34,337 nucleotides of DNA from Beijerinckiaceae bacterium (GTDB taxonomy: Bacteria > Pseudomonadota > Alphaproteobacteria > Rhizobiales > Beijerinckiaceae), in contig CANJWR010000030.1 in assembly GCA_947478455.1 (NCBI GenBank), positions 1-34,337 on the forward strand. The letters are read 5' to 3'. Positions within the stretch are counted from its first letter, which is position 1, and every line of letters begins with the position of its first letter. Under the pieces are notes generated by a model, which saw nothing but the letters and a program-made list of their open reading frames with translations, was not told the origin of the DNA and made no database searches. A program made the translations under genes and the position numbers. This document shows positions 4,651-33,157 of this stretch, piece after piece.

Positions 4651-4677
4651 TTGCCTTACATCTTTGCTTCGACGTCA

Positions 4678-4711
4678 AAGGCAGTCGCCGGCAAGGGCGA
4701 TTGCCTTTTTT
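4678..4711 (+). terminator. Rho-independent terminator after the amidohydrolase
   Basis: 12-bp stem AAGGCAGTCGCC (4678-4689) and GGCGATTGCCTT (4696-4707) with one G-T wobble and loop GGCAAG, running into six T. It ends at the stop codon of the convergent minus-strand gene. Confidence 0.85.
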
Positions 4712-5869: not shown

Positions 5870-5885
5870 CTCTCCTCCGGTTGCC

Positions 5886-7549: not shown

Positions 7550-7601
7550 TTGCTGTTTTCCTTTTGAACGTTAATGGCCAAGGCCAGATCGGGGTACGCC
7601 A

Positions 7602-7760
7602 ATGAGCCTGGGTACAATTCTGCTCATCATACTCATCTTGTTTCTTGTCGGCGCTCTGCCGACGTGGCCGCACAGCGCAAGCTGGGGCTACTATCCGAGC
7701 GGTGGTCTCGGCATCGTTCTGGTGATCGTGGTCGTGCTCTTGTTGATGGGCCGACTGTAG
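7602..7760 (+). CDS. DUF3309 family mini membrane protein
   Basis: 52 residues. The sequence starts MSLGTILLIILILFLVGALP, continues with TWPHSASWGYYPSGGLGIV, and ends with a second hydrophobic helix and GRL. This matches the DUF3309 pattern of two helices around a P-T-W-P-H-S-x-x-W-G-Y-Y-P-S-G-G loop. Only a weak GGGG (7591-7594) precedes ATG 7602, but the protein match is strong. Function is unknown. The family is small, membrane-embedded and common in Hyphomicrobiales. It lies between the lipoprotein gene and a strong terminator and probably shares their transcript. Confidence 0.85.
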   Translation: MSLGTILLIILILFLVGALPTWPHSASWGYYPSGGLGIVLVIVVVLLLMGRL

Positions 7761-7781
7761 TTCTTCTGCTTCCGAAGTCTT

Positions 7782-7811
7782 GGGGCGCACATTTGTGCGC
7801 CCCTTTTTTTT
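7782..7811 (+). terminator. Rho-independent terminator after the DUF3309 gene
   Basis: Perfect 9-bp stem GGGGCGCAC (7782-7790) and GTGCGCCCC (7795-7803), loop ATTT, then eight T. Confidence 0.93.
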
Positions 7812-7859
7812 GGAATATCGCGATATCAGTCACCCCGATTTGCTCTGGAGCGATATTCG

Positions 7860-9059: not shown

Positions 9060-9229
9060 CTTGCTGGCGGCCCTGGTCCATTTCGCTACGGCTGATGCTG
9101 TGATCGGCACCCGTTGAGTTGGGCTAACAATGAGTCATATTAAACCTGTCTCAAGAAATTGAAATCCAAAATGCGACACTCTCAAAGGCGCAGCTTCAAA
9201 AATTCTGGCGATCATCGAGGGATTTCTAT

Positions 9230-9254
9230 GGAACAGAATGTCTCCTGTGGCGTT
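9230..9254 (+). promoter_or_regulatory. EcfG-type promoter (GGAAC-N16-CGTT) for the membrane micropeptide
   Basis: GGAAC at 9230-9234, 16 bases, CGTT at 9251-9254. This is the known consensus of EcfG-type general-stress sigma factors. Transcription would start near 9260-9264, about 30 bases before the ribosome site and ATG of the 25-residue peptide. Confidence 0.8.
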
Positions 9255-9293
9255 CATATGAACACTTTGACGATGCTGAAACAGGAGATTGAA

Positions 9294-9371
9294 ATGTTTC
9301 GTGGAATCTTGTTGTGGCTTCTGGGCATCCCGATTCCAATTATCATTCTTCTCTACATTTTCTATCGATAG
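9294..9371 (+). CDS. 25-residue membrane micropeptide
   Basis: Very short ORF, ATG 9294 to TAG 9371. The product is one hydrophobic helix: MFRGILLWLLG, then IPIPIIILL and a YIFYR tail. A good AGGAG lies about 7 bases before the ATG. A perfect EcfG-type promoter sits 40-64 bases upstream. The frame stays open further upstream, but the predicted transcript start falls at about 9260, so the longer form is unlikely to be made. Similar single-helix peptides with an LLWLxGIPxPIIIL core exist in proteobacteria as hypothetical proteins, from memory. Function unknown. Likely inserted in the inner membrane under general stress. Confidence 0.72.
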   Translation: MFRGILLWLLGIPIPIIILLYIFYR

Positions 9372-9479
9372 TCGCTCGCGTGTTCGGTTCTCATTGAGGA
9401 TTTCGGAGAGTTCTTCATTGACCGAAAATCCTTGAGAAATCGATTGATCTGATGAGAACAAACAAAGTTGCGAGGAGCC

Positions 9480-9504
9480 GGAACACTGACGCTTTGCGGA
9501 CGTT
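9480..9504 (+). promoter_or_regulatory. EcfG-type promoter (GGAAC-N16-CGTT) for the LuxR-type gene
   Basis: GGAAC at 9480-9484, 16 bases, CGTT at 9501-9504. The expected transcript start is near 9511, about 60 bases before ATG 9570. Confidence 0.8.
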
Positions 9505-9569
9505 GTTTCTTGGACGCCGCGTTCGATCCCAAACGGGACTTTGACGGGGCCCGGACAGGAGAAAGACTC

Positions 9570-9899
9570 ATGGGACGGCCTGAAAACCAGATACAATGGG
9601 ACTTGTCCCAGCTCACTGTTTGGCGGGACATTGCGGCAAATAATGTTGCTGCGTTGACGCCGCGACAGCTTGAAATCATGAATCTCGTTCTTGACGGGCA
9701 TCCCAGCAAGAACATTGCTGTCGATCTTGGCATCAGCCAGCGCACGGTGGAAAAGCATCGCGCCGCAATCATGAAGAGAACAGGATCAAAGTCACTGCCG
9801 GCGTTGGCGCGACTTGCATTGTTTGCCGCCTGGAGTTCAGTCGATCTTTCATTGCTGCGCAGCGGAACTGTTGTGTCCGGATCCTCCCACGCCAGCTAG
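9570..9899 (+). CDS. Stand-alone LuxR/FixJ-type HTH regulator
   Basis: 109 residues. A LuxR-type helix-turn-helix occupies about residues 28-85: ALTPRQLEIMNLVLDGHPSK, then NIAVDLGISQRTVEKHRAAIM. This is the FixJ/NarL DNA-binding form. The usual N-terminal receiver is missing, replaced by about 27 residues with no recognisable domain. ATG 9570 follows AGGAGAAAG, and an EcfG-type promoter lies upstream. With no phosphorylation domain, its activity may be set mainly by its level, that is by the stress sigma factor. It converges on phyR across a shared hairpin. Target genes are unknown. Confidence 0.82.
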   Translation: MGRPENQIQWDLSQLTVWRDIAANNVAALTPRQLEIMNLVLDGHPSKNIAVDLGISQRTVEKHRAAIMKRTGSKSLPALARLALFAAWSSVDLSLLRSGTVVSGSSHAS

Positions 9900-9906
9900 T
9901 TTTTCG

Positions 9907-9946
9907 AGGCCGTAGCTGCGACACTTCATGATCGCAGCTATGGCTT
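9907..9946. terminator. Hairpin terminator between convergent HTH gene and phyR
   Basis: Long stem GCCGTAGCTGCGA (9909-9921) and TCGCAGCTATGGC (9932-9944) with one G-T wobble, extendable by two pairs, loop of ten bases. TTCTCTGTTT follows on the plus strand, while the minus strand lacks a clear U-tract. Probable terminator for the plus-strand gene, possibly for both. Confidence 0.6.
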
Positions 9947-9952
9947 CTCTGT

Positions 9953-10744
9953 TTAGGCCGCGCGCCTTGACGAGCGCTTGTCGAAAAAGAGCGCCTGACT
10001 GATGGCCGCTTTAACAACTTCAGTCGCCAGAGGCTTGGTGATCAGGAAGGCCGGCTCCGGACGTTCACCTGTCAAAAGGCGCTCTGGAAACGCGGTGATG
10101 AAGATCACAGGTACTTCGTAGTTCGTCAAAATCTCGTTGACCGCATCAAGACCAGAGCTTCCATCGGCCAATTGTATGTCTGCAAGCACAAGGCCGGGGC
10201 GCTTGGCCTCGGCCAGCTTCACGGCTTCCTTGTGTGTGCGGGCAATGCCGATAACCTGATGTCCCAAATCCTGCACGAGAGATTCAATATCGAGCGCAAT
10301 CACCGGCTCATCTTCGATAATCAAAACGTCCGTGGCGACCTGCAGGGCGATCTCGCGACCGGCAAGATCGATGAGGCTATCCACCTGTGCGGGTTCAACC
10401 TGCAGAATAGCCGCGACCTCGGCGCCGGAAAATCCCTCGACGGTTCTGAGCAGAAACGCCTGACGCGATCGCGGCGTCAACAGATTCAGATTGCGTTGTG
10501 CAGCTGGAGCCGCCTCGGCAGTGTCGACTGCGCCGTTGATCGGAATGGACGACCAGAGATCGAGAAAGGTTCGATACAATCCAATCCGCGAAGGACTGTC
10601 TTTCGGAAAGGCCGACGGGTCAGCCACAAGAACCTCTAGAGTGGAGATGACATAGGAATCGCCGCTCTGCTGGGAGCCGGTCAATGTGCGGGCGAACCGA
10701 CGCAGATAGGGCAAATGCGGTGCAATTTCTTGAGCAATTGACAT
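9953..10744 (-). CDS. phyR: PhyR anti-anti-sigma response regulator
   Basis: 263 residues. Residues 1-135 form an EcfG-like sigma domain (MSIAQEIAPHLPYLRRFART, and a sigma-4-like LTPRSRQAFLLRTVEGFSGAEVA). Residues 138-255 form a receiver with acidic Glu144 and Asp145, phospho-acceptor Asp189 (LADIQLADGSSGLDA), Thr217 and Lys237. This is the known PhyR layout: phosphorylation frees the sigma-like domain to bind NepR, releasing EcfG. Start ATG 10744 is preceded by GGAAG; an upstream in-frame ATG would add eight residues and shows no site. It is divergent from nepR-ecfG, the classic arrangement. No perfect EcfG promoter was found in front of phyR itself. Confidence 0.96.
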   Translation of the reverse strand: MSIAQEIAPHLPYLRRFARTLTGSQQSGDSYVISTLEVLVADPSAFPKDSPSRIGLYRTFLDLWSSIPINGAVDTAEAAPAAQRNLNLLTPRSRQAFLLRTVEGFSGAEVAAILQVEPAQVDSLIDLAGREIALQVATDVLIIEDEPVIALDIESLVQDLGHQVIGIARTHKEAVKLAEAKRPGLVLADIQLADGSSGLDAVNEILTNYEVPVIFITAFPERLLTGERPEPAFLITKPLATEVVKAAISQALFFDKRSSRRAA

Positions 10745-10761
10745 GAATAGCTTCCGTTCAG

Positions 10762-10775
10762 GCAGCAATTGCTGC
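10762..10775. repeat. 14-bp perfect palindrome in the phyR leader
   Basis: GCAGCAATTGCTGC is its own reverse complement. It lies 18 bases upstream of the phyR start codon, so in the transcript it could mask the ribosome site or serve as a protein site. No proof of function. Confidence 0.4.
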
Positions 10776-10822
10776 TGCTTATCAGGTCACATTGCGCGCG
10801 CGCCTTCGCGGCGGTCAAGCGT

Positions 10823-10840
10823 GAATAAATATATTTATTC
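10823..10840. promoter_or_regulatory. 18-bp AT-rich perfect palindrome between phyR and nepR
   Basis: GAATAAATATATTTATTC is a perfect palindrome of 18 bases in otherwise GC-rich DNA. It ends four bases before the GGAAC of the nepR-ecfG promoter. Candidate operator for a dimeric regulator or AT-rich promoter element for phyR. Confidence 0.5.
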
Positions 10841-10844
10841 CTGC

Positions 10845-10869
10845 GGAACAAGTTTGATATTCGCGCGTT
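10845..10869 (+). promoter_or_regulatory. EcfG-type promoter (GGAAC-N16-CGTT) for nepR-ecfG
   Basis: GGAAC at 10845-10849, 16 bases, CGTT at 10866-10869. It lies about 80 bases before nepR, with the start site near 10876. It implies that EcfG activates its own operon, as known in other alphaproteobacteria. Confidence 0.88.
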
Positions 10870-10951
10870 TCCTGTCTGTCGACCGTGTCCCGGCGCCTGA
10901 CAATCGTGGAAATCGGGGCTCAGCCGGATTTTCTTTTGTGGGGGCGAGACC

Positions 10952-11176
10952 GTGGAAATTGAAATGGGTGAGGCCCGCGCGCCTGTCGACGATAGCCATA
11001 ATGGCAAGGACACAAGCCAGGACGTTGTGCAGCTTGACTATGCTGTGCAGCAGGTCATCGGCGCTGCGCTGAGAGATTATTGCAACGACATCATTCAAGA
11101 GCCTGTTCCGCAGAAATTCGTCGCGCTTCTGGCGCGGCTGGAAGCGGAAGAGCGCAACAAACGGAATGACAAATGA
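10952..11176 (+). CDS. nepR: NepR anti-sigma factor
   Basis: 74 residues from GTG 10952; ATG 10964 would remove four. The NepR core is visible: VVQLDYAVQQVIGAALRDYC followed by NDIIQEPVPQKFVALLARL, with the conserved I-G-x-x-L-R-x-x-Y and E-P-V-P-x-x-F-x-x-L-L pattern. NepR holds EcfG inactive and is captured by phosphorylated PhyR. The stop overlaps the ecfG start as ATGA (11173-11176), giving coupled translation. An EcfG-type promoter precedes it. The N-terminal 25 residues are polar and likely disordered, as usual for NepR. Confidence 0.93.
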   Translation: MEIEMGEARAPVDDSHNGKDTSQDVVQLDYAVQQVIGAALRDYCNDIIQEPVPQKFVALLARLEAEERNKRNDK

Positions 11177-11727
11177 CAAAATCTTCAGCTTCGGACTTGC
11201 TCGTGGCGGAAATCCCGTTTCTCCGCGCCTATGCTGTGTCGCTGACAAGCTCTGTGACGTCGGCCGACGATCTCGTGCAGGAGACGCTTGTCAAGGCATG
11301 GGCCAACTTCAGCTCCTTTCAACAGGGCACCAATCTGCGCGGCTGGCTTGTCACAATTCTTCGTAACAGCTTTTATTCGAACTATCGTAAATTGAAGCGC
11401 GAAGTACCCGACCCGGATGGTCTTTACGCGAAGACGCTGTCTGTTGGCGCCGAACAGGGCAGCCGCCTCCAGTTGAATGAGTTTCGAAAGGCGCTTGAAA
11501 AGCTTTCGCCGGAACATCGTGAAGTGCTGGTGATGATCGGTATTGCTGAAATGTCTTATGAGGAAGCCGCCGAAATCTGCGGCGTTCCAACCGGTACTGT
11601 GAAAAGCCGATTGAACCGCGCTCGCGCAAAACTGGCGGAGCTACTCGGTCTCAGCGGTGTGCAGGACATAGGTCCCGATCCGATGAATACGGGCGTGTTA
11701 GTTCGCGCGCCATCGCGGGCGTTCTGA
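11173..11727 (+). CDS. ecfG: EcfG-type ECF sigma factor (general stress)
   Basis: 184 residues. Region 2 spans about residues 12-80: FLRAYAVSLTSSVTSADDLV then QETLVKAWANFSSFQQGTNL, with the W-L-x-x-I-L-R-N motif. Region 4 spans about 105-160: LSPEHREVLVMIGIAEMSYE, then EAAEICGVPTGTVKSRLNRA. This is the ECF15/EcfG class. It overlaps nepR by four bases, and its promoter carries the sigma factor's own consensus. A 25-residue tail follows region 4. It should bind core RNA polymerase once PhyR removes NepR. At least three promoters of the matching form lie within 1.7 kb. Confidence 0.95.
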   Translation: MTKSSASDLLVAEIPFLRAYAVSLTSSVTSADDLVQETLVKAWANFSSFQQGTNLRGWLVTILRNSFYSNYRKLKREVPDPDGLYAKTLSVGAEQGSRLQLNEFRKALEKLSPEHREVLVMIGIAEMSYEEAAEICGVPTGTVKSRLNRARAKLAELLGLSGVQDIGPDPMNTGVLVRAPSRAF

Positions 11728-17312: not shown

Positions 17313-17348
17313 CAAAAAAACCCGCATCGACATCGCCGATGCGGGTTT
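17313..17348. terminator. Bidirectional terminator between the crotonase and molybdo-hydroxylase genes
   Basis: 12-bp perfect stem AAACCCGCATCG (17318-17329) and CGATGCGGGTTT (17337-17348), loop of seven. The A-run 17314-17320 gives a U-tract on the minus strand, so it should strongly end the long minus-strand operon. The T-run on the plus strand is only three, so it is weaker for the crotonase gene. Confidence 0.88.
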
Positions 17349-17373: not shown

Positions 17374-19659
17374 TCAGTTCAGGCCTTGCGCCTTCGCTTG
17401 TTCAATCAACTTGAGCAGTTTCGGCGGCGACATCGGCAGCGATGTCGGACGAATGCCGATGGCTTCGCCGACAGCGTTGGCGATTGCCGCCATCGCTGGC
17501 GTCAATGGCACTTCACCGACGCCGCGCAATCCGTAAGGATGTTTCGGGTTGGCGACCTCGACGATCACGGTGTCGATCATCGGCACGTCGGATGCGACCG
17601 GCATGCGATAGTCGAGGAAGCCGGCGTTCTGCAGTTTGCCGTCTTCACCGAACACATATTCCTCGTTCAGCGCCCAGCCGATGCCCTGAACGGCTGCGCC
17701 CTGGAACTGACCCTCGACCTGCAGAGGGCTGATCGCCTTGCCGGCGTCCTCGACAATCGTGTAGCGCTTCACGCCCACGAGGCCGGTTTCCTTGTCGACG
17801 TCCACGTCCACGATGTGAACCGCGAAACCCGGGCCCGCGCCGGTGACGTTCATTTCCGAATGACCGCAGATTGCGCCCATCGTGTAGGTGGTCTTCGACG
17901 CAATGTCCTTCATGGACAGGGGCGGGAAATCGCCGACGTTGGAGCTGGCGGGACGGCAATGTCCGTCCTCGAACACCACGCCTTCTTCGGGTACGTTCCA
18001 CATCTTCGCCGCGCGGCGGCAAAGCTCCGCGATGATCTTGCGGGCGGAGTCGACCACGATCATGCCGCTGGAGAATGTCGTACGGCTGCCGGCGGTGACG
18101 CGGTTGTAGCCGAGCGAATTCGTGTCGGCCAGTTGCGAGCGGATGCGATCAACCGGAATGCCGAATTCCTCAGCGGCCATCATCGACATGGACATGCGCG
18201 AGCCAGCGACATCCGCAGTGCCGAGGATGATGTTGAGGGTGCCGTCGGGCGCCAGCGCCATCGAGCCGGTGGTTTCGCCGCCGCGATTGAACCAGAAGCC
18301 GCAGGCGATGCCGCGACCCTGACCGGCTGGAACCGGCGAGCGATAATGATCGCAGGTCTTGGCGGCCTGCAGGGTTTCGACAAAGCCGATCTTGGTGAAG
18401 GTCTCGCCATAGATGGTCTTGTGGCCCTCGACGATCGCGTTCTTCATGCGGAAGTCGATCTGGTCCATGCCCAGCTTCTTTGCCATTTCGCTCACGAGGC
18501 CTTCGACGCCGAACACTACCTGCGGCACGCAGGGCGCGCGGAACGAGCTGACCTTGGGGCGATTGGAAACGACTTCATACGAGACGGTCTTGACGTTCTC
18601 GATCTCGTAGCGCGTCAGCATGGCCTGCGGCGCATTGGTGAAGGCCGAGCCTGTGTAGGGACCGGTCTGGAAGATCAGTTCGGCGTCGACGGCGACAATC
18701 GTGCCGTCCTTCTTGCAGCCCATCTTGATCTTCGAGGCGGTTCCGGACACCGGGCCTGTGCCGCGCAAGACTTCGACGCGCGTCAGGGTCATCTTGACCG
18801 GCGCCTTGGCCTTCTGGGCCAGCACAATCGCTACAGGCTCCGTGTAGAAGGTCGTTTTTCCGCCGAAGCCGCCGCCGAGTTCCGACTGCTGGATGCGGAT
18901 TTTCGATGAATCCAGCTTGAGGATTTCGGTCAGACGGTCGCGATAGACCCACGGTGCCTGCGTGCAGCACCACAGATCGACCTGTCCGTCGTCGGAGACG
19001 CTGGCGATGCAGGATTGCGGCTCGATATAGCCCTGATGCATGGGTTTGGTGTCGTAGGAGCCTTCGACGATCAGATCGGCCTTCTCGAAGCCCTTTGCGG
19101 CGTCGCCCTTCGAGAGTTCGAGGCGCTCGACCACATTGGTCTTCTTCTCGGCCGCCGGACCCTTCACGCCCTTGGTGCGCAGATAATCGTGCAGGATCGG
19201 CGCATCGTCGCGCATGGCCTGAACGGGATCGATGACGTGCGGCAGCACTTCATACTCGACCTCGATCAGCTTCAGGGCTTTCTTGGCGGCGGATTCTGTC
19301 GTGGCCGCAACGGCGGCGACCGGATGGCCCTCCCAGTAAACCTTCTCGCGCGCCATGGCGATGCGGGTCATGTCGCCGCCGCCGGTGCCGGCCTTGATCT
19401 CGGGGAAGTCGTCGCGGGTGACGACAGCCTTCACGCCGGGAACTTTCTCGGCCTTCGAGATGTCGATCCGTTTGATGATTGCATGGGCGTGCGGGCTGCG
19501 CAGGTACTTGCCGACCAACATGCCGGGCAGAAAGGCGTCGGCGGCAAACTTGGCTCGGCCGGTCACCTTGTCGAAACCGTCGTGCTTCACGGGCGAGGTG
19601 CCGATGATCTTGTATTTCTTGTCCGGGTTGTAGCCGGGCTTTTCGAGAATGGTTGTCAT
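17374..19659 (-). CDS. Molybdopterin-binding large subunit, xanthine dehydrogenase / CO dehydrogenase family
   Basis: 761 residues. N-terminal aldehyde-oxidase hammerhead domain (KHDGFDKVTGRAKFAADAFL, YLRSPHAHAII), then the molybdopterin-binding domains with QSELGGGFGGK, SSFRAPCVPQ and the C-terminal GVGEVPLTPA, where Glu716 is the catalytic base of the family. The coxL AYRCSFR-type loop of true CO dehydrogenase is absent; FRAPCVPQ fits a hydroxylase of unknown substrate. ATG 19659 follows GAGGGGAG and lies two bases after the 2Fe-2S gene's stop. Gene order FAD, 2Fe-2S, Mo equals that of coxMSL. No XdhC/CoxF-type maturation gene is in the window. It would hydroxylate a heteroaromatic or aldehyde-type substrate with water-derived oxygen. 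Confidence 0.92.
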   Translation of the reverse strand: MTTILEKPGYNPDKKYKIIGTSPVKHDGFDKVTGRAKFAADAFLPGMLVGKYLRSPHAHAIIKRIDISKAEKVPGVKAVVTRDDFPEIKAGTGGGDMTRIAMAREKVYWEGHPVAAVAATTESAAKKALKLIEVEYEVLPHVIDPVQAMRDDAPILHDYLRTKGVKGPAAEKKTNVVERLELSKGDAAKGFEKADLIVEGSYDTKPMHQGYIEPQSCIASVSDDGQVDLWCCTQAPWVYRDRLTEILKLDSSKIRIQQSELGGGFGGKTTFYTEPVAIVLAQKAKAPVKMTLTRVEVLRGTGPVSGTASKIKMGCKKDGTIVAVDAELIFQTGPYTGSAFTNAPQAMLTRYEIENVKTVSYEVVSNRPKVSSFRAPCVPQVVFGVEGLVSEMAKKLGMDQIDFRMKNAIVEGHKTIYGETFTKIGFVETLQAAKTCDHYRSPVPAGQGRGIACGFWFNRGGETTGSMALAPDGTLNIILGTADVAGSRMSMSMMAAEEFGIPVDRIRSQLADTNSLGYNRVTAGSRTTFSSGMIVVDSARKIIAELCRRAAKMWNVPEEGVVFEDGHCRPASSNVGDFPPLSMKDIASKTTYTMGAICGHSEMNVTGAGPGFAVHIVDVDVDKETGLVGVKRYTIVEDAGKAISPLQVEGQFQGAAVQGIGWALNEEYVFGEDGKLQNAGFLDYRMPVASDVPMIDTVIVEVANPKHPYGLRGVGEVPLTPAMAAIANAVGEAIGIRPTSLPMSPPKLLKLIEQAKAQGLN

Positions 19660-19661
19660 GA

Positions 19662-20141
19662 TCAGGCTCCCCTCATCTCTTCCGCTGCCGCGAGCACAGA
19701 GCGGATCACCTTGTCGTAGCCAGTGCAACGGCAGAGATTGCCAGCAAGCCAGTAGCGAACTTCAGTCTCGGTGGGATCGGGATTGCGTTCGAGCAGCGCG
19801 CGCGCAGCGACAAGAATGCCGGGCGTACAGATGCCGCATTGCAGACCGTTGAGTTCCAGAAACTTGCGCTGGAGCGGGTGCAGTTCGTCGTTCGACGCCA
19901 TGCCCTCGATGGTGTCGATCGTCTTGCCTTCTGTCTCGACCGCGAGAATGAGGCAGGAGCAGACGAGCGTTCCGTCGACCATAACGCTGCATGCGCCGCA
20001 ATCTCCGGTGGCGCAGCCTTCCTTGGTGCCGGTCAGCATGAGTTCGTCGCGCAGAACGTCGAGAAGGGTCTGCTGCGTTTCGCACAGGAACTCGTATTCG
20101 TCGCCGTTAACGGTGGCGGTGACGTGATGCTTTCTGCTCAT
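19662..20141 (-). CDS. 2Fe-2S subunit of the molybdo-hydroxylase
   Basis: 159 residues, normal for the small subunit. All eight cluster ligands are visible: plant-ferredoxin-type Cys43, Cys48, Cys51 and Cys63 (EGCATGDCGACSV), and the alpha-helical cluster Cys102, Cys105, Cys137, Cys139 (QCGICTPG, NLCRCTGY). It passes electrons between the molybdenum and FAD subunits. Its start overlaps the FAD gene's stop by four bases (ATGA), and the large-subunit gene follows two bases later, so the three are translationally coupled. Confidence 0.95.
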   Translation of the reverse strand: MSRKHHVTATVNGDEYEFLCETQQTLLDVLRDELMLTGTKEGCATGDCGACSVMVDGTLVCSCLILAVETEGKTIDTIEGMASNDELHPLQRKFLELNGLQCGICTPGILVAARALLERNPDPTETEVRYWLAGNLCRCTGYDKVIRSVLAAAEEMRGA

Positions 20142-21010
20142 GCGATATGCCTCGCGCGTTCGAGCGCCTTCTGGGCGACACGTTTCGCCAGCACGCCGGC
20201 GACCTTGATGCGGAATTCCTTGGTGCCGCGCTTGTCGTCGATGGGACGGCAGGCGGCGCTGGCGGCTGCGGCAAGTTTGTCGAGCGCAGCTTCATCGACC
20301 TTTGTGCCGATGAGCGCGTCCGCACATTCCTTGCTAAGCAGAACCGTCGGGGCGACGGCGCCGAGCGATACGCGCGCAGCCGTGCAAACGCCGCCGGCGT
20401 CGAGCGTCAGGTTCACAGCGATTCCGACAACCGCAATGTCCATCTCGGTGCGGGGCGTGAAGCGCTGATAGGCGCCGCCCGAATTGCGCGCCGGGGCGGG
20501 CAGGAAGAAGGATTCGATGATCTCGCCCTTGGCGAGCGAAGTCTTGCCGGGACTGACGGGGATCTGCTCGACGGGGACATCGCGCGCGCCATTGGGGCCA
20601 ACCACATGGGCAATCGCGCCAGCGGTGACCATGGGCGGAACGCTGTCCGCGCCCGGAGAGGCGTTGCAGAGATTGCCGGCGACAGTTGCGCGGCCCTTCA
20701 CCTGAATGGAGCCGATGAGCTTCACGCCCTCGATGACGCCCGGAAAGGTGGCGCAGAGCGCTGCGTGATCCATCATCTGCATGGCGCTGACGGCCGCGCC
20801 GATGCGGAAGCCACCGTTCTCGGCAGTGATGTTGCGCAGGGCCGGAATTTTCTTGATATCGACCAGCAGTTCCGGCTCGATCAGATCGGTTTCCATCTGA
20901 ACGATGACGTCAGTGCCGCCGGCCAGAATGCGTGTCAGGCCGCCGGCGGCTGCGAGCGCCTTCACGGCGTCCGCCAGACTTCCCGGCGCCTCATAGCGAA
21001 GATCGGGCAT
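20138..21010 (-). CDS. FAD-binding medium subunit of the molybdo-hydroxylase
   Basis: 290 residues from ATG 21010, which follows GAGGGAG; 28 more upstream in-frame codons appear non-coding. FAD-PCMH domain with ILAGGTDVIVQM (GGTD 31-34) and TVAGNLCNASPGADSVPP (109-126), followed by the CO dehydrogenase flavoprotein C-terminal domain (AVVGIAVNLTLDA, SLGAVAPTVLL). It receives electrons from the 2Fe-2S subunit. The permease gene ends 93 bases upstream, and no terminator is seen between them. Confidence 0.93.
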   Translation of the reverse strand: MPDLRYEAPGSLADAVKALAAAGGLTRILAGGTDVIVQMETDLIEPELLVDIKKIPALRNITAENGGFRIGAAVSAMQMMDHAALCATFPGVIEGVKLIGSIQVKGRATVAGNLCNASPGADSVPPMVTAGAIAHVVGPNGARDVPVEQIPVSPGKTSLAKGEIIESFFLPAPARNSGGAYQRFTPRTEMDIAVVGIAVNLTLDAGGVCTAARVSLGAVAPTVLLSKECADALIGTKVDEAALDKLAAAASAACRPIDDKRGTKEFRIKVAGVLAKRVAQKALERARHIA

Positions 21011-21103
21011 TTCCACTCCCTCGTTGAAATTCGTCCGGGCCATCATGGCCCGAATTGCGCGCCGCGCCAACAGGCTTGACGGCGACATGGGCAAACTTCC
21101 GCA

Positions 21104-22843
21104 TCAATCGCCGGAGCTTCCGGCCTTGCCGCTGAAGCGCGGTCTGGCGAACAGAAGGGCAGCCGAGACCGTAATTCCCGACACGATGCCGATGATGCTG
21201 CCGAGCGCCGCCAGCTGCGAATAGGTGCCGTTGTCGAACAGGGCCAAAATCAGATAGCCGATCACCGGATTGCGCGGTCCCGCCAGAATGGCGGCGGCGT
21301 TCAGTTCGCCCACCACAAGGGTGAAGATCAGCGCCCAGCCCGCCGCCAGACCCGGCAGGATCAGCGGCAATTGCACGGTGCGGAAAGTGCGGCCCGGCCT
21401 TGCGCCGAAGATGCGCGAGGCTTCAACGAGCTGGTTGCCGACCTGCTGGACGGCGGACTCCGCCGCGATGGATGCCTGCGGGATGTAAACGGCCAGATAG
21501 CAGATGAAAATGATCAGCCATGTGCCGTTGAGGAAGAACGGCGCAAACCCGAATGTCACCAATACGCCCACGGCGAAGACGATGTGCGGGATGGCCGAAG
21601 GCACTTTGGTGAGAACGCCGAGCCATTTCTCTTTTGCGCCGCCGATATTCTTGCCGACGATGGAGAGAATGCCGGCGATCAGCACGACTGCGGTCGTCGT
21701 CAGCACGGCCAGCCAGGCGCTGTTGATGATGGCCGTGCGCGATTGCCGGTCGGACCAGAATTCGAAGAAATTGGCGAACGAAAGCTGGTCGAACACGATG
21801 GTAGAGCGCCAGAAAGGCTGTAGCGACACAACGAAAAGGGCCAGCAAAGGCAGGATCGATGTCAGCGTCACATAGAGCAGGAGCAGGATGCGCGCCGGCC
21901 AGCGCCATGCGCCCAGCCCGATCAGGTTGGGCCGCACGCCCATGCCGCCGATCTGCGCATGGCCGGTGCTGGAGGCGATGCGCCGCTGCGTCAGCCACAG
22001 CAGCCCGATGACGACGATCAGCACGACGCCGAGCACGACCGCTTGTCCGATTTTCGGCGGATAGGAGGCGTTGAGCAGGCGATAGATATAGACGGACAAA
22101 ACGTCGATGCGCGCCGCCGTGCCCAGCAGGGCGGGGATTGAGTAAAGCCCGAAGGACGAAATGATTGTCAGCAGGGCGCTAGAGCCGACCGCATGACGGA
22201 TCGCCGGAACCGAAATGCTCCAGAAGCATTTCAGACGACCCTTGCCGAAAATGCGCGCGGCTTCTTCAAGCGAGGGATCGAGCGAGCCGAAGGCCGCCGC
22301 CGCCACCACGTAAACATGCGGCACCGAAAACAGAACGTAGAGCAGCACAAGACCGCCCCAGCTTTGCACCGCCAATGCCGACGGATCGATAGCGAGCCCG
22401 AGCATCTTGAACAGGGACTGCAGCGGCGCTGCGAGAAAGCCGGCGCGCGGGTCTGCCAGAAACAGCCAGCCGATGGTCATCGCCACGGGCGGCAGCAGGA
22501 GCGGGATCACCGGAAGCAGGCGTGAAAGCGCGCCCCAGCGCGCATCCGTGCGCTCGACCAGCCAGGCGAAGAAAATACCGATGGGAACAGAGATGATCGT
22601 ATTCAGGAAGGCAATGATCAGCGTGTTGCGAACAGCGACCATCAGGTCCGGCTGCGACAACGTCGTGGCCCACAGCGCGAAATCGGGCTTCCAGTTCGGC
22701 AGTAGGGCCCGCTGGAGGATGATCCCGAGCGGAAAGAAGATCGCCACGAAGACCAGCGCGGCCAGGACCACCACCAGAGCCGTGATAGCGCGATAGCGCG
22801 GGCGCTCATTCTCGACTGTCTGGCTCACGGCGTTCATCGTCAT
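21104..22843 (-). CDS. ABC transporter permease, fused two-domain iron(III)/2-aminoethylphosphonate type
   Basis: 579 residues with about 12 membrane helices and two complete permease domains. Each has its EAA loop that contacts the ATPase: SLEEAARIFGKGRLKCFWSI in the first half and QLVEASRIFGARPGRTFRTV in the second. This is the FbpB/ThiP-like fused layout used with FbpA/AfuA-type binding proteins. The start overlaps the ATPase stop by four bases (ATGA). Relatives import ferric iron, thiamine, spermidine-like or phosphonate ligands. The enzymes around it suggest an organic ligand rather than iron (inference). Confidence 0.92.
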   Translation of the reverse strand: MTMNAVSQTVENERPRYRAITALVVVLAALVFVAIFFPLGIILQRALLPNWKPDFALWATTLSQPDLMVAVRNTLIIAFLNTIISVPIGIFFAWLVERTDARWGALSRLLPVIPLLLPPVAMTIGWLFLADPRAGFLAAPLQSLFKMLGLAIDPSALAVQSWGGLVLLYVLFSVPHVYVVAAAAFGSLDPSLEEAARIFGKGRLKCFWSISVPAIRHAVGSSALLTIISSFGLYSIPALLGTAARIDVLSVYIYRLLNASYPPKIGQAVVLGVVLIVVIGLLWLTQRRIASSTGHAQIGGMGVRPNLIGLGAWRWPARILLLLYVTLTSILPLLALFVVSLQPFWRSTIVFDQLSFANFFEFWSDRQSRTAIINSAWLAVLTTTAVVLIAGILSIVGKNIGGAKEKWLGVLTKVPSAIPHIVFAVGVLVTFGFAPFFLNGTWLIIFICYLAVYIPQASIAAESAVQQVGNQLVEASRIFGARPGRTFRTVQLPLILPGLAAGWALIFTLVVGELNAAAILAGPRNPVIGYLILALFDNGTYSQLAALGSIIGIVSGITVSAALLFARPRFSGKAGSSGD

Positions 22844-24003
22844 GCGTCAAGCCATTGCAGGCTGCCGGGTTCGAAGATCACATCGATTGGACTGCCGGCA
22901 ACGGGAGGCGAGCGATGCGACACGGCCTCAAACAGCCAGGCCATGACTTCCGCGCCCGGCAATTCGATGCGGACTTCGCAGCGCGCCCCGAGGAAGACGA
23001 CTTCGCGCACCGTGCCACGCACGCGTGGCGCAGGATCGGCTACGGCAGCGCCGACGGCGCCGACATCCACCCGCTCGGGGCGGATCGCCAGAACGCCCTT
23101 CTGGCCGATTTGCATTTCTGAATTTGCGCAATGGACTTCGAACGTGCCGAAGTTGGTTTTCGCATGAACCACGGAAGGACCAACCTGAACAATCTCGGCC
23201 GGCCATTGGTTCACTTCGCCGACAAAGCCCGCCACATAAAGGCTGTTGGGCTTTTCATAGACCTGACGGCTCGATCCGAGCTGCTTGATGCGGCCCGAAT
23301 CCATCACCGCCAGCGTGTCGGCGAGTTCCATCGCCTCTTCCTGATCGTGAGTGACGTAGATGCCGGAGAATTTTGTTTCGTGTTTCAGGTCACGTAATTG
23401 CGCGCGCAGGCGCCGACGCACTTTCGCGTCGACGTTCGAAAGCGGCTCGTCGAACAGGATCACGGAGGGCTTGCCGATCAGCGCCCGCGCCAGCGCCACA
23501 CGCTGCTGCTGGCCGCCGCTCAGTTCGCTGGGAAAACGTTCTTCGAAGCCCGCAACGCCAAGGCGCGTCAGCACATCATGCACGCGGCCGCGGACATCGC
23601 CACGCGCTGCTGGATCGAGCGAGGTCAGCGGGTAGGAGACGTTCTGGAACACCGTCATGTGCGGCCAGAGCGCATAGGACTGGAACATCATGCCGAGGTG
23701 GCGATCCTCCGGCGGCAGGTAGCGTTTCTTCGACGAGGAAAAAACCAGTTTGCCGTCGATGGTGATTTCGCCTTCATCGGGCGTCTCAAGTCCGGCGACA
23801 GAGCGCAGCAGCGTCGTCTTTCCACAACCGCTGGGCCCGAGCAGCACCACCAGTTCCCCGGCGTTCACATCGAGATCGACGTGATCGACGCCGACCACAT
23901 TTCGGGCGCGTGTGCGATAGACCTTGCGCAGCCCGCGTATCTGAACCGCTGTTCGTTTCTGGGCCGGCGCACCGGTCGTGCCGTCGGGATTGCTGCTGTT
24001 CAT
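22840..24003 (-). CDS. ABC transporter ATP-binding protein (FbpC/PotA type)
   Basis: 387 residues from ATG 24003; the frame is open upstream but those codons look non-coding. Walker A GPSGCGKT (56-63), Q-loop Gln108, signature [15 protein letters not shown] (161-175), Walker B VILFDEP (181-187), switch His219 (YVTHDQEEA). A C-terminal TOBE-like regulatory domain follows from about residue 290. It powers the fused permease directly downstream. The ribosome site is weak (GGAC). Two binding-protein genes lie upstream in the same transcript. Confidence 0.94.
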
Positions 24004-24053
24004 TTTGTCCGCATCTGGGGCAGGGCGTGTTGACGGGATGAGACCGGAGCAGA

Positions 24054-25091
24054 CTAGTTCGCCAACCCCATATCCTTCACCAGTTGCTTCTTGCGCTCTT
24101 CGGTGAGGATGTAGGTGATCGGCTCCGGATCCTTGACGATTACGCAACCGAACTTGCCTTCCGGATCCGCCACAACTGCGACCGTCTTGTTCTTGCAGGC
24201 GGCCTTGATGCCGTTTTCGGACATGATCCAGTCCATGAACAGGCGGGCCGCATTCGGGTGCGGGGAATTGGCGAGCGCGGCGATGACGCGCTCGGAGACC
24301 AGCGTCGGCTCCGTGATGGCGAACAGCGCGATGGGGGCCTTCTTCTCGATCAGGGCTGCGGAGAAGTCCTGAAAGGTCGGAAAGTTAATGGCGAAGGCGC
24401 CGGCGGCGATCATCTGAGCGCCCGAAGCGCCGCTGGGCGTCAGCGTGGCGTTGAGGGCTGCGATCTTGCGCAGGAAGTCTGCGCCCCTAGCCTTTTCGAG
24501 ACCGTCGAGCCAACCGAAATAATTGTCCGCCACGCGCGGGTCGGTCAGCAGGATTTTGCCTTTCCATTTCGGATCGGCAAGTTCGGCGTAGGTCTTCGGG
24601 TGGGTCCCGACCGGAATCTGGTCGGTGTTATATGCGAGATAGAAGTTGTCTGCGGTCCAGCTGATGTAGTTCGGGCTTACCCAGCGGGTCGGCCATTTCG
24701 GCAGGTTTTCCGCATATTCCTTTGTCATCTTCACGAACCACTCGGGGTGCTCGATGAACGGCACTGTGGTGGAGACGCTCACCACATCGGCCTGAACGTC
24801 CTTGCCCTCGATCTCTGCACTCATGCGCTGGATGAGCGGGATCGTGGTCAGGCGCAGCCACGAACCGGCGATGCCGAACTCGGCCTCAAATGCGCCCAGC
24901 ACGGTTTTGGACTGGGTTTCTCCCGACGAGGAATAAAGCATCAGCTTGCCCTCGGCCTTCGCGGCCTTGATCAAGGCATCGCGGCTGATGGGCGCCTGCG
25001 CGAGGGCGGCGGATGCGCCGAGCGCAACGCCCGCGACCGCAAGAGCGGCTGTGATGCGGGTGCGCAAATGGTTGGAAGATGTTTTCGACAT
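24054..25091 (-). CDS. Periplasmic binding protein, Fe(III)-type ABC importer (paralogue 1)
   Basis: 345 residues. Sec signal peptide ends at about residue 31 (ALAQAP). Mature protein of the FbpA/AfuA-like fold: LIKAAKAEGKLMLYSSSGET, DPKWKGKILLTDPRVADNYF, and a C-terminal ARLFMDWIMSENGIKAA. CGGAG lies 7 bases before ATG 25091. It resembles its upstream neighbour along its length (shared LTDPR-, SGASGAQ-, HPEWF and LIEKKAPI segments) but is clearly diverged, so this is an old duplication. The tyrosine pair typical of ferric-binding FbpA near the C-terminus is not evident, which argues against free iron as ligand. Confidence 0.9.
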   Translation of the reverse strand: MSKTSSNHLRTRITAALAVAGVALGASAALAQAPISRDALIKAAKAEGKLMLYSSSGETQSKTVLGAFEAEFGIAGSWLRLTTIPLIQRMSAEIEGKDVQADVVSVSTTVPFIEHPEWFVKMTKEYAENLPKWPTRWVSPNYISWTADNFYLAYNTDQIPVGTHPKTYAELADPKWKGKILLTDPRVADNYFGWLDGLEKARGADFLRKIAALNATLTPSGASGAQMIAAGAFAINFPTFQDFSAALIEKKAPIALFAITEPTLVSERVIAALANSPHPNAARLFMDWIMSENGIKAACKNKTVAVVADPEGKFGCVIVKDPEPITYILTEERKKQLVKDMGLAN

Positions 25092-25133
25092 GGTCTGCTC
25101 CGGAAGGAGAATGCGATAGGATGAAGGCGTGAA

Positions 25134-26162
25134 TTAAAGACCCAGCAGTTTCAGCAACTGGGCGCGACGCTCGGGCGTCGTTTTCCACGGCAACGGCTGC
25201 GGATCTTTCAAGGCGATGCAGCCCAGCTTTCCATCTTCGTCGCCCGGTGTGGAGACCGGCAGTGCGGCGCAGAGCGCCCGCACGGCGCTTTCCGACAGGA
25301 CCCAATCGAGAAACAGCCGCGCGGTTTTCGGGTGCGGGGCCTTGGCGGCGACGGCGAGGCTGGTTTGGCTCGCCAGAACCGGATCGGCCATGATGCGCGA
25401 CGAGATTGGCGCCTTCTTCTCGATCAGCGGCACCGAAAAAGACGAATAGGCCGGGAAATTCAGATGATGCGCGCCGGCGGCGACCAGCTGCGCTCCCGAT
25501 GCGCCGCTCTGGGTGAGCTTCACGTCCTGCGCACCGAGCTTCTGGATGAAGTCAGCCCCGTAGCGTTTTTCGAGCATGTCGACCCAACCCAGATAGGTGT
25601 CGGAAATGCGTGGATCGGTGAGAAGGATCTTGCCCTTCCACTTGGGATCGACAACGTCGGCCCAAGTCTTGGGAATATCGGCGTCCTTCACCAGATCGGT
25701 ATTGAACTGGATGACGGAGCCGCTGGTCTGGATCGTCACAGCGTTGGATGACACCCAGCGCGCCGGCCAGCGGGTCACATTGGGGATCTCTTTTGCGTCG
25801 AGTTTGAGGAACCATTCGGGATGCAGTTCGAACACCTGCGGGGATGAATCCAGAAAGGCGTCGGCGTCGTTGGAGTTTGCGTCATTGGCGGCGGAGAAGC
25901 GCTGGATCAGGGGCGTGCTGACGAGGCGAAGAAAATCCCCCTTGATGCCATAGTCCTTCTCGAAACCGGCGAGCAAGGCCTTGATCTGCGGATCGCTGAT
26001 GGACGCATAAAGCAAAAATCCGCCTTCGGCTTTCGCGGCTGCGATAGCGGCGTCGCTGGCGCGCACGCCCTGAGCCAATGCGGACTGGGTGATGCCAAGG
26101 GAGGCAGAAAGAGCCAGACCCAGCGTGACGCCCAGTGTCTGAACGCGCATGTTCCTGTTCAT
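25134..26162 (-). CDS. Periplasmic binding protein, Fe(III)-type ABC importer (paralogue 2)
   Basis: 342 residues from ATG 26162, preceded by GGGAGGGGATG. Sec signal peptide through about residue 31 (SALAQG). Mature fold as in the neighbouring paralogue: AIAAAKAEGGFLLYASISDP, ELHPEWFLKL, DPKWKGKILLTDPRISDTYL, SGASGAQLVAAGAHHLNFPA, and KTARLFLDWVLSES. Two binding proteins for one ATPase/permease pair suggest two ligands or a wider ligand range. Forty-two bases separate the paralogues. The 101 bases before this gene could hold an internal promoter (TTGACG at 26216-26211 on the minus strand), but no good -10 box was found. Confidence 0.9.
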   Translation of the reverse strand: MNRNMRVQTLGVTLGLALSASLGITQSALAQGVRASDAAIAAAKAEGGFLLYASISDPQIKALLAGFEKDYGIKGDFLRLVSTPLIQRFSAANDANSNDADAFLDSSPQVFELHPEWFLKLDAKEIPNVTRWPARWVSSNAVTIQTSGSVIQFNTDLVKDADIPKTWADVVDPKWKGKILLTDPRISDTYLGWVDMLEKRYGADFIQKLGAQDVKLTQSGASGAQLVAAGAHHLNFPAYSSFSVPLIEKKAPISSRIMADPVLASQTSLAVAAKAPHPKTARLFLDWVLSESAVRALCAALPVSTPGDEDGKLGCIALKDPQPLPWKTTPERRAQLLKLLGL

Positions 26163-26263
26163 TGTCACATCCCCTCCCGTTCCCTCATTTCGAGGGTAAA
26201 CCCGTCCATACGTCAAGCGTCGGGCCTTGTTGCTCGCCCGGATTTCGCCTGCCGTGTCGTATA

Positions 26264-27271
26264 TTAACTGGCCTTGCGTTTGACCGCCTCGCGATAGGCC
26301 CATTTATAGGCGTTGATGCGCGCATGCATCATCGGATCGACCGGACGACGTTCGAATGCGTCGAGCCAGTGACGCAGCAGGAGGCGCTTCTGCGTTGCGG
26401 AATTCTCGAACTCCGTGCGGCAATGCAGGAACAGATAATTGTTCCACAGCATCATCTCGCCCGGCTCCAGCATGAAGCGCAGGTTCATGTCGTTGCGACC
26501 GGCCAATTCCATGAAGAGGTCGAGGCCTTCGGCCAGCTTCGGCGGCAGCGGCTCGCCGCGCTTTTTGGCGGCTTCTCGCATGAAGCTTGCGGCGATCATG
26601 CAGCTCACCACGCCGTTGACGTTGCTGAAGACCGGAATCTTCTCGTCAGTTAAAGGCTTGTCGGTGAATTTCACTTCGGGAATTGCGTAGTAATACCCTT
26701 CATAAAGCGCATCGAGCAGGTCGGGCCGCGTGCGCTGGATCTCGTTGTGAATGGCCAGTACGCTGACCATGCCGCTCATGCCGCCCGAGGCTGCCTGCCT
26801 GATGCACATGAGGCCGATGTGCTCGGGCGAGTCCGTATGCCAGGTCAGTTCGCCCGAGCTGCGGTAGCCGCGCTTGACCGGGTTCGTTTCGTCGTCCTCG
26901 ACGAAGCCGATGCGATCGCCCGAAGCGCTCTGTACATTGGCGACTCCGAGATGCGTGCCGAGGCCCCAGTAGATGCGCTCCATATCTTTCTCGGAAAAAC
27001 GATCCGGCGTGATGCCGACGAGAATGACTGCGCCACGGCCTTTTTCAACAATCTCTCGAACATCGTTCATAAGCGGCGTGGTGCGCGGGTCGTCGAAATC
27101 CTGCCGCGTCACGTCCTGCACGTCGAGGTGTTTTGTTTTCGCCAGCAGACTTTCGAAGCCGGCTAATTCGTCGGCGGTCAGCGCTCTGACCAGGTCCGCC
27201 TTGCCGTGCGGCAGGGACTTGCTTGTCCAGACTGCCGGATGATCAATCTGCGCGCGATACACGGGAGTCAT
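26264..27271 (-). CDS. TauD/TfdA-family Fe(II)/2-oxoglutarate dioxygenase
   Basis: 335 residues from ATG 27271, which follows AAGGAG by seven bases. Facial triad: His145-x-Asp147 (ELTWHTDSPEH) and His283 (NYLFLHCRTEFE); the 2-oxoglutarate-binding Arg is Arg300 (RLLLRHW). These residues match the active TauD superfamily, so it is probably functional. It is larger than TauD (about 283 residues), and the body (YYYAIPEVKFTDKPLTDEKI, MLEPGEMMLWNN) matches the gamma-butyrobetaine/carnitine-like branch of uncharacterised members. It oxidises a C-H bond using 2-oxoglutarate and oxygen. Its place between a decarboxylase and an importer suggests it acts on the imported compound or a derivative (inference). 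Confidence 0.9.
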   Translation of the reverse strand: MTPVYRAQIDHPAVWTSKSLPHGKADLVRALTADELAGFESLLAKTKHLDVQDVTRQDFDDPRTTPLMNDVREIVEKGRGAVILVGITPDRFSEKDMERIYWGLGTHLGVANVQSASGDRIGFVEDDETNPVKRGYRSSGELTWHTDSPEHIGLMCIRQAASGGMSGMVSVLAIHNEIQRTRPDLLDALYEGYYYAIPEVKFTDKPLTDEKIPVFSNVNGVVSCMIAASFMREAAKKRGEPLPPKLAEGLDLFMELAGRNDMNLRFMLEPGEMMLWNNYLFLHCRTEFENSATQKRLLLRHWLDAFERRPVDPMMHARINAYKWAYREAVKRKAS

Positions 27272-27367
27272 GGGCGCTCCTTGTCCAACGCCGATCGTAA
27301 CGAGCGACAGCGTTTCCTCAATGATTTTGGTTCTGGATTCCCAGTAATCCAACGTGAGGCCCGATTC

Positions 27368-27400
27368 AAGGCGGCGATTTGTCCGTGAAATTGCCGCCTT
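27368..27400. other. Strong hairpin between the decarboxylase beta gene and the dioxygenase gene
   Basis: AAGGCGGCGATTT (27368-27380) and AAATTGCCGCCTT (27388-27400) pair over 13 bp with one G-T wobble, loop GTCCGTG. No T-tract on either strand. It may attenuate or stabilise the long transcript rather than end it. Confidence 0.55.
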
Positions 27401-27411
27401 GCGTCATTCGG

Positions 27412-27975
27412 TCAAGCTCCCGATGCGAGCGCTTCGCGCAGCGCCGCGCGCCGGGCGGGCTTGTACATGTCGGTCCAGTCCTTACGACCGGGTGGACCCT
27501 GCTCGACGTCGAGACAGACGAAAGTCGGTCCGTCGATGGTCATCCAGCTGGCGATATTCTTCTCGAAGTCTGCAATGTCTGAAACTCGCGCAACATTGCG
27601 GATATTGGCGCCGCGCGCGATGGCGGGGAAATCCACTTCCCGATTGGGGATGGGGTGCCCGCCGTTCGCCTCGTAGACGTTGTTCTGAAACACGAAATGC
27701 AGCAGATTTTTCGGTGCGACCTTCCCGATGGTCACGAGCGTGCCGAGATTCATCAAGAGGCCGCCGTCGCCATCCAGCACCACGATTTTCCGTTCGGGAC
27801 GCGCGAGCGCAAGGCCAAGTCCGTGGGAGGAACCCAGTCCCATTGCGCCGACCGCATAATAGTCCAGCGGTCGTTCGCTTATTGAAGCCCAGTCGAACCC
27901 GCTCGAATAGGTTCCGACGACGATCTCGTTGGTGATGTGGCGCTTGAGAATTTCCAGAACTGCAAGACGGTTCAT
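27412..27975 (-). CDS. Thiamine-diphosphate-dependent decarboxylase, beta (PP-domain) subunit
   Basis: 187 residues. Only the diphosphate-binding domain of a TPP enzyme: the motif GDGG (69-72) and Asn98-Asn99 bracket the classic metal-binding segment (VVLDGDGGLLMNLGTLVTIG, FQNNVYEANGG). AVGAMGLGSSHGLGLAL precedes it. Separate alpha and beta chains are the layout of sulfopyruvate decarboxylase (ComDE) and some phosphonopyruvate decarboxylases. Its start overlaps the alpha gene by four bases (ATGA). The substrate should be a 2-oxo acid; whether sulfo-, phosphono- or another type cannot be told by eye. Confidence 0.85.
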   Translation of the reverse strand: MNRLAVLEILKRHITNEIVVGTYSSGFDWASISERPLDYYAVGAMGLGSSHGLGLALARPERKIVVLDGDGGLLMNLGTLVTIGKVAPKNLLHFVFQNNVYEANGGHPIPNREVDFPAIARGANIRNVARVSDIADFEKNIASWMTIDGPTFVCLDVEQGPPGRKDWTDMYKPARRAALREALASGA

Positions 27976-28508
27976 GCGGGCTTACCCCCGATCAGAATCG
28001 CGACGGGGCGCGAAGTTGCGTAGGCCTCATCGATTGCGGGCTGAATCAGATGCACGTCATCGTCGGATTCGATGAGAATGCGCTTGATGCCCATCACATC
28101 GAGAATAGGTTCGACGATGCGGATGCCAAATCTGCGCGCCTGTTGTGGCGCGACGCCCGGCTCCTTGCCGAGCAGGCCGATCATGAGCACCATCGGTTGC
28201 TTGTGTTCGACCGCGACGGCCCTGATGGCGTTCATCGCATACAGGAAACCTGTGTACTGAATAAGGATCAATGCACGCTTGTTTCCGTACTGGAGGCCAG
28301 CTGCGATACCGAGCGTCTCGTCTTCCTTGCAGACACGGATCAACTTCAGGTTCGGGTCAGCGGCGATCGGCGTCAGCAGACCCTGGGCTGTGTGCAGATC
28401 GGGAACCGACAGCACATAGTCGATGCGCGAATCCCTGATCGCCTGCATCACTTTTGCGCCGTGCAATTTTGGCGGGGCAGCAGCCGTTTTGGCGGTAGTG
28501 TCGTCCAC
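27972..28508 (-). CDS. Thiamine-diphosphate-dependent decarboxylase, alpha (PYR-domain) subunit
   Basis: 178 residues from GTG 28508, preceded by GAGGAGGAAG. Pyrimidine-binding domain: IRVCKEDETLGIAAGLQYGN contains the conserved Glu that activates TPP (Glu62 or Glu64), and YTGFLYAMNAIRAVAVEHKQ, PMVLMIGLLG follow. It needs the beta chain to build the active site at the interface. It is the first gene of the long minus-strand operon. A plausible sigma-70 promoter lies about 65 bases upstream. Family relatives: sulfopyruvate and phosphonopyruvate decarboxylases. Confidence 0.85.
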   Translation of the reverse strand: MDDTTAKTAAAPPKLHGAKVMQAIRDSRIDYVLSVPDLHTAQGLLTPIAADPNLKLIRVCKEDETLGIAAGLQYGNKRALILIQYTGFLYAMNAIRAVAVEHKQPMVLMIGLLGKEPGVAPQQARRFGIRIVEPILDVMGIKRILIESDDDVHLIQPAIDEAYATSRPVAILIGGKPA

Positions 28509-28572: not shown

Positions 28573-28602
28573 ATTCTAGCCTTGGCGACTGCGGCAAAGC
28601 AA
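28573..28602 (-). promoter_or_regulatory. Putative sigma-70 promoter of the ten-gene operon
   Basis: On the minus strand TTGCTT (28602-28597), 18 bases, TAGAAT (28578-28573). Expected start near 28566, giving a leader of about 58 bases before the GTG of the alpha subunit gene. Found by eye only. Confidence 0.5.
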
Positions 28603-33080: not shown

Positions 33081-33157
33081 CGGGGTATAGCGCAGTCTGG
33101 TAGCGCGGAAGTTTTGGGTACTTCAGGTCGTAGGTTCGAATCCTGCTACCCCGACCA
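33081..33157 (+). tRNA. tRNA-Pro (anticodon TGG), CCA encoded
   Basis: Full cloverleaf: acceptor CGGGGTA (33081-33087) with TACCCCG (33147-33153), D-arm GCGC/GCGC, anticodon stem GAAGT (33108-33112) with ACTTC (33120-33124), loop TTTGGGT giving anticodon TGG (33115-33117), T-arm GTAGG-TTCGAAT-CCTGC with one mismatch, discriminator A and genomic CCA (33155-33157). The first acceptor base C and discriminator A agree with tRNA-Pro. Confidence 0.95.

Follow-up and report, generated by a model that had tools for sequence, protein, structure and literature searches.

Why should ten consecutive genes join a split decarboxylase dependent on thiamine diphosphate (ThDP, or TPP), an oxygenase dependent on Fe(II) and 2-oxoglutarate (2OG), an ATP-binding cassette (ABC) importer with two receptors and a molybdenum (Mo) hydroxylase, and do they serve a single pathway? 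The genes (g1 to g10) lie at 28508-17374 of a 34,337-nucleotide stretch, the window, which is the entire contig C30 (CANJWR010000030.1) of a freshwater Beijerinckiaceae bacterium (assembly G000, GCA_947478455.1; 4.6 Mb, 317 contigs, about 92% complete). All ten open frames are on the minus strand and, with families assigned from Pfam and NCBIfam, are a real, conserved predicted operon of catabolic type. Our best explanation is that they probably constitute an operon specific to this lineage, for uptake and oxidation of one organic acid, that has a genus-wide 2-oxoacid decarboxylase as its foundation. The features and their predicted roles are as follows, with Pfam families in brackets.

27972..28508, minus: g1, PYR-domain subunit of a split ThDP (TPP) decarboxylase, ComD/RhiE-like, GTG start (TPP_enzyme_N-like)
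27412..27975, minus: g2, PP-domain subunit of the g1 enzyme, ComE/RhiF-like; ATGA overlap with g1 (TPP_enzyme_C)
26264..27271, minus: g3, Fe(II)/2OG oxygenase, TauD/TfdA superfamily (TauD)
25134..26162, minus: g4, periplasmic binding protein 1, AfuA/PhnS2-like (SBP_bac_6/1)
24054..25091, minus: g5, periplasmic binding protein 2, 47% identical to g4 (SBP_bac_6/1)
22840..24003, minus: g6, ABC importer ATPase, PhnT2/PotA-like (ABC_tran and TOBE_2)
21104..22843, minus: g7, fused ABC permease of 579 aa; ATGA overlap with g6 (two stretches of BPD_transp_1)
20138..21010, minus: g8, flavin adenine dinucleotide (FAD) subunit of a xanthine-oxidase-family Mo-hydroxylase (FAD_binding_5 and CO_deh_flav_C)
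19662..20141, minus: g9, 2[2Fe-2S] subunit; ATGA overlap with g8 (Fer2 and Fer2_2)
17374..19659, minus: g10, molybdopterin subunit with the active-site Glu present (Ald_Xan_dh_C and MoCoBD)
17318..17348, minus: intrinsic terminator, a 14-pair stem and T run, between g10 and a convergent enoyl-CoA hydratase-like gene

From g1 to g10 the nine junctions are an ATGA overlap of 4 bases, gaps of 140, 101, 42 and 50, an overlap of 4, a gap of 93, an overlap of 4 and a gap of 2. Open frames and Pfam thus bear out the first-pass annotation in its ten consecutive minus-strand genes with gaps of at most 140 bases, and its four ATGA or near-zero junctions prove to be three ATGA overlaps and one 2-base gap. 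The strong terminator that it placed at 17313-17348 is also there, at 17348-17318, and shows no conservation in the sister species G004. The promoter that it proposed at 28573-28602 fared less well, being absent from the sites of a promoter scanner, and the DNA upstream of g1 is little conserved in two sister species. No riboswitch was found in the window with Rfam at the gathering threshold, the sole match being one tRNA. Where the window has its terminator, G004 carries a palindromic repeat 3' of the Mo gene (L076, about 17740-17818) that resembles repeats found scattered in rhizobia.

Several lines of evidence suggest that the set has been kept together. Orthologues of the g3 oxygenase (82-84% identity) occur in two of the 36 other genus genomes, G004 and G035 (3/37 with the window genome); 396 other genomes taken from the order gave none (E <= 1e-70). 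A contig scan for TauD gave 12 loci, namely these two and ten at 43-53% identity; none of the ten has a TPP match in the stretches covered, four have a receptor match (24-28%), two of these four also a permease match (29%), and an Fe-S match (37%) occurs at one of the ten. Close orthologues of TauD turned up solely together with the set, and the permease orthologue, sought in 23 other genus genomes (22 and G035), was found only in G004 and G035 (83%). G004 has all ten genes, collinear with those of the window and 78-94% identical to them, and the site is also shared: an aldo/keto reductase (AKR), a sirtuin and BA14K flank one end, enoyl-CoA hydratase-like and TPR genes the opposite end. The ratio of nonsynonymous to synonymous divergence (dN/dS) against G004 is 0.057-0.139 over the ten genes, a rough figure with dS up to 1.4.

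The G035 version lies on two contigs. C177 reads sirtuin, AKR, BA14K-like, TPPN and TPPC (the g1 and g2 counterparts), RidA, two Amidohydro_2 proteins, receptor, TauD and receptor before it ends; C387 reads the tail of a receptor (76% identical to g5 over 25 residues), ATPase, permease, FAD and Fe-S genes and the opening five codons of the Mo gene (MTTIL, identical to the window) before it ends in turn, which is why the Mo subunit search came back blank in G035. We infer that C177 and C387 are one operon with a four-gene insertion of RidA, the two Amidohydro_2 proteins and an extra receptor (L075, G035:C177, 3313-7093). In a TPPC tree of 26 rows, the window, G004 and G035 group together (100/98), and this group falls weakly (83/74) beside the copies from G003, G013 and G020, which occupy this same site. 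Conservation of the set elsewhere, which the first-pass annotation had proposed checking, therefore extends to the whole order in G004 and, over two contigs, in G035, but the oxygenase orthologue reaches just those three of 37 genomes.

None of the NCBIfam matches shown for g1-g10 reaches its curated cut-off, so our assignments are to families and not to substrates. g1 and g2 are separate PYR and PP subunits carrying ThDP motifs: the Glu of a KEDE motif in g1 aligns with a RhiE Glu that we take to be catalytic, and g2 retains the GDG...NN cofactor motif, making the pair a likely 2-oxoacid decarboxylase. The TPP_N match of g1 in Pfam (21.1 bits) is under the cut-off of 26.8 and is backed by TIGR03845, itself sub-cut-off, and by likeness to RhiE. 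Against the curated models the pair scored 83 bits where 148 are required (TIGR03845), 102 of 221.5 (TIGR03846) and 116 of 312.5 (TIGR03297). The pair resembles the sulfopyruvate decarboxylase ComDE and the phosphonopyruvate decarboxylase RhiEF (both described in PMC12141560) in having its two domains on small adjacent genes with the Glu region and GDG...NN conserved. It differs from them in these sub-cut-off scores and in reading QYTGFLY at the RhiE stretch QNSGLG, which may be a family-defining feature; outside the genus, one relative of the window type has QNTGFF at this position.

The oxygenase g3 has the HxD...H triad (H145, D147 and H283) and a 2OG-binding Arg (R296), invariant in 13 aligned rows, and its structure model (predicted local distance difference test, pLDDT, 85.8) has as nearest solved folds FrbJ and TtnM (Foldseek E 1.7e-22 and 7.7e-21); with triad, Arg and TauD fold all present, it belongs to the TauD/TfdA superfamily, and no NCBIfam equivalog model scored over cut-off. 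It shares its fold and its 2-His-Asp plus Arg set with FrbJ, a phosphonate hydroxylase, and TtnM, a tautomycetin hydroxylase, but is only 22-26% identical to them, and because their substrates are unrelated to each other the specificity of g3 cannot be read from theirs. The importer g4-g7 scores against the PhnS2/T2/U2 models, always under the equivalog cut-offs, and g4 and g5 have PhnS2-like architecture (a receptor structure prediction, at pLDDT 53, was too poor and was not used). SBP_bac_6 receptors, a fused permease and a TOBE_2 ATPase are as in the AfuABC and PhnS2T2U2 importers, whereas the two receptors per permease, with a third in G035, and the sub-equivalog scores set it apart.

With FAD, 2[2Fe-2S] and molybdenum cofactor (MoCo) subunits and the active-site Glu, g8-g10 form a xanthine-oxidase-family enzyme, sharing the three-subunit plan, domains and Glu of 4-hydroxybenzoyl-CoA reductase (HBCR) and XdhABC. 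The closest solved relative of g10 is HBCR alpha, but the HBCR equivalogs were missed (alpha 463 of 995 bits; beta 112 of 405), as were those for xanthine dehydrogenase (XdhA/B/C, 438 of 780, 191 of 310 and 170 of 217 bits). Unlike in HBCR, g8 matches the beta model in two pieces, as if it were missing the 4Fe-4S insert that is presumably a feature of HBCR beta. CO dehydrogenase was ruled out as the identity of g10, since the Cys of AYRCSFR, which we take to be the motif of that enzyme, has no aligned Cys here.

Taking each reaction type from these families, a route can be proposed in which a small organic acid, bound by the two receptors, would enter through one ABC importer of the AfuA/PhnS2 type. 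The TauD-type oxygenase would insert oxygen at an aliphatic carbon or one alpha to a heteroatom, and the Mo-hydroxylase at an aromatic-ring carbon or an aldehyde. The split ThDP enzyme would decarboxylate the 2-oxo acid so formed, and the Mo enzyme, the adjacent AKR or general dehydrogenases might then take on the aldehyde product. The G035 version, with its RidA-family protein and two Amidohydro_2 enzymes, hints weakly at a carboxylated aromatic or N-heteroaromatic substrate, that is, a nitrogenous aromatic acid, as these additions presumably recall aminomuconate-type chemistry. At two distant loci (L173 and L182), one RidA-domain and one Amidohydro_2 protein likewise accompany a TPP decarboxylase. 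As the first-pass annotation had supposed, we found no described pathway with this gene set in the open-access literature, which is weak evidence of absence.

TPP pairs of the genus keep varied company. At the AKR/sirtuin site, G013 has TPPN-TPPC and two short-chain dehydrogenases/reductases (SDRs) next to MFS-like, Acyl-CoA_dh_2-family, LigB and LigA genes, G003 and G020 have the same families, and G031 has TPPN-TPPC with an ATPase, a permease, two SDRs and an NMT1 receptor. Other pairs lie beside an amine-oxidase-like gene (judged by eye), TctC-like receptors and Amidohydro_2, or a cluster of UbiD and carboxymuconolactone-decarboxylase families. A different TauD-family gene (by Pfam) occurs two genes from the TPP pair, on the opposite strand, in G011 (L082, 2346-5183). 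At L054 (6172-8464) and L056 (7726-10028) the pair sits about 90 bases downstream of a same-strand zinc alcohol dehydrogenase (family by Pfam), which by eye reads like a glutathione-dependent formaldehyde dehydrogenase, possibly a hint at the pair's native role. In another family of the class, an aminotransferase overlaps TPPN by ATGA, followed by TPPC (L148 in G559, 7429-9577), as expected of a 2-oxoacid decarboxylase. Among plasmid-borne relatives there was no TPPC match and TauD reached at most 41%; the two plasmid TauD neighbourhoods opened listed neither TPP nor Mo genes. Our home-made gene caller gave few genes in L065, L068 and L122-L125 and none in L147 and L149, and neighbours at these loci are uncounted by name.

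G004 and G031 also have a second operon type, in which a fused Mo/FAD hydroxylase (1123-1128 aa) lies directly upstream of a divergent split TPP pair (31-32% identical to the window TPPC); in G004 the two overlap by a single base, and in G031 a single base separates them. Both examples (L144, G004:C29, 2375-12973; L145, G031:C16, 2195-9452) include a VanA-like Rieske protein and a 2Fe-2S protein; the first also has an NMT1-type importer, a luciferase-like monooxygenase and an isochorismatase-family gene, and the second an intradiol dioxygenase further on. The pairing of a Mo-hydroxylase with a split decarboxylase therefore recurs. As a class-wide rule it was rejected: with TPPC-family matches in 127 of 385 genomes, we compared 40 TPP loci, one per genus among the matches listed, with 40 control regions of those genomes, taken mostly from the start of contig 1 (its first 18.5 kb), in stretches of variable length (645,619 and 641,854 bases in total). 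ATPases numbered 12 vs 12, SDRs 10 vs 8 and TauD 0 vs 1.

An uptake-and-oxidation operon has to be weighed against the explanation that these are neighbouring modules and not one pathway: the genus-wide TPP decarboxylase would do a separate job, TauD and the importer would be a second unit and the Mo trio a transferable third, and the three would share a transcript or only a place. We consider this unlikely, yet a number of results favor it over our preferred reading. By TPPC only (E <= 1e-40), a homologue (43-78%) was found in 32 of the 36 other genus genomes, 33 of 37 in all, alone or with other cassettes in the opened loci; at the 24 loci opened, in 19 genomes, the window TauD was matched at none, the permease at one (31%) and the Mo family at five, every Mo match more than 6 kb off, and one divergent TPP type accounting for four of these five loci. 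L082, with its different TauD-family gene, is among the 24. The cassettes that G003, G013, G020 and G031 carry on the TPP pair at the same site point the same way. Relatives of the Mo subunit (72-86%) occur in ten further genus genomes, each with adjoining FAD and Fe-S genes, and these trios had no TPP, TauD or permease match in stretches of 4-19 kb, a receptor match in one (29%), TctC-like proteins in five and LLM in two. Mo-hydroxylases matched at one of the 40 TPP loci and two of the 40 controls from alphaproteobacterial genera, making the Mo/TPP pairing a feature of some clusters and not of the enzyme family. Against G004, dS is 0.62-0.69 for the Mo trio, 1.1-1.4 for the TPP pair and 0.8-1.0 for the remaining genes, so the parts may differ in history, and its lower dS and wide occurrence may leave the trio room for a separate function. 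The flanks are syntenic in G004 too, so conserved order there is only partly independent evidence; in G035 the contigs are unjoined and the receptor after TauD is just 57% identical to g4 over 113 residues; and the gaps of 140, 101 and 93 bases could contain internal promoters. What tells for a common pathway is that G004 keeps the order, that G035 appears to do so despite its insertion, that the genes are joined by three ATGA overlaps and a 2-base gap, and that a separate Mo-plus-TPP operon type exists. We judge it likely that all ten genes belong to one pathway, a claim that draws on order and spacing in three close species. Import and breakdown of one compound, as first proposed, hence fits the families and the order, with the wide separate occurrence of the TPP pair and Mo trio standing against it; whether enzyme and transporter genes are regularly apart elsewhere has a mixed answer, yes for TPPC and the Mo trio and no for the close TauD and the permease orthologue.

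The first-pass annotation had also listed a sulfonate or phosphonate among its candidate substrates, which would make the set a route of import, TauD-type hydroxylation and decarboxylation of sulfopyruvate or phosphonopyruvate. The top NCBIfam matches of g1 are indeed sulfopyruvate and phosphonopyruvate decarboxylases, the latter ranking second for g2 after an unnamed family; RhiEF are the nearest solved proteins to g1-g2, and the PhnS2/T2/U2 scores and the FrbJ and TtnM folds lean the same way. We nevertheless think this very improbable. Every one of these scores is under its curated cut-off, and QNSG, replaced in g1, is found in none of the 25 genus rows in which the stretch is visible (27 were aligned, two too short, with a few loci present twice). 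Xsc or PhnX scored over cut-off in 0 of 7 genomes, where no control genome passed either, leaving the search without a positive control, and G000 is about 92% complete. Finally, such a route leaves the Mo-hydroxylase without a role.

Elsewhere in the window, 201-6911 encodes three binding proteins, one TctC-like (judged by eye) and two NMT1-like, together with two Amidohydro_2 proteins and a chromate transporter of two genes. A sensor kinase, response regulator and extracytoplasmic function (ECF) sigma factor at 7860-11727 look like a general stress response (PhyR-type) locus, the receiver and sigma domains being assigned by Pfam and the rest by eye. The tRNA gene found with Rfam is at 33081-33154 on the plus strand.

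Returning to the uptake-and-oxidation operon, we tentatively suggest, at somewhat less than even confidence, that it occupies a plug-in locus where a QYTGF-type decarboxylase stays at one site and whole cassettes swap around it: TauD, a two-receptor importer and a Mo-hydroxylase here, an SDR pair with a LigA/LigB dioxygenase or an SDR pair with an NMT1-type importer in other genomes. The window would then hold an undescribed aerobic route in which one imported acid is processed successively by a 2OG oxygenase, a Mo-hydroxylase and a ThDP decarboxylase. The combination is new and its parts are ordinary, known enzyme types. The wide and conserved two-gene ThDP decarboxylase is a concrete enzyme to assay and could account for a function that almost all species of the genus retain, and the swapped cassettes around it offer natural clues to its substrate range.

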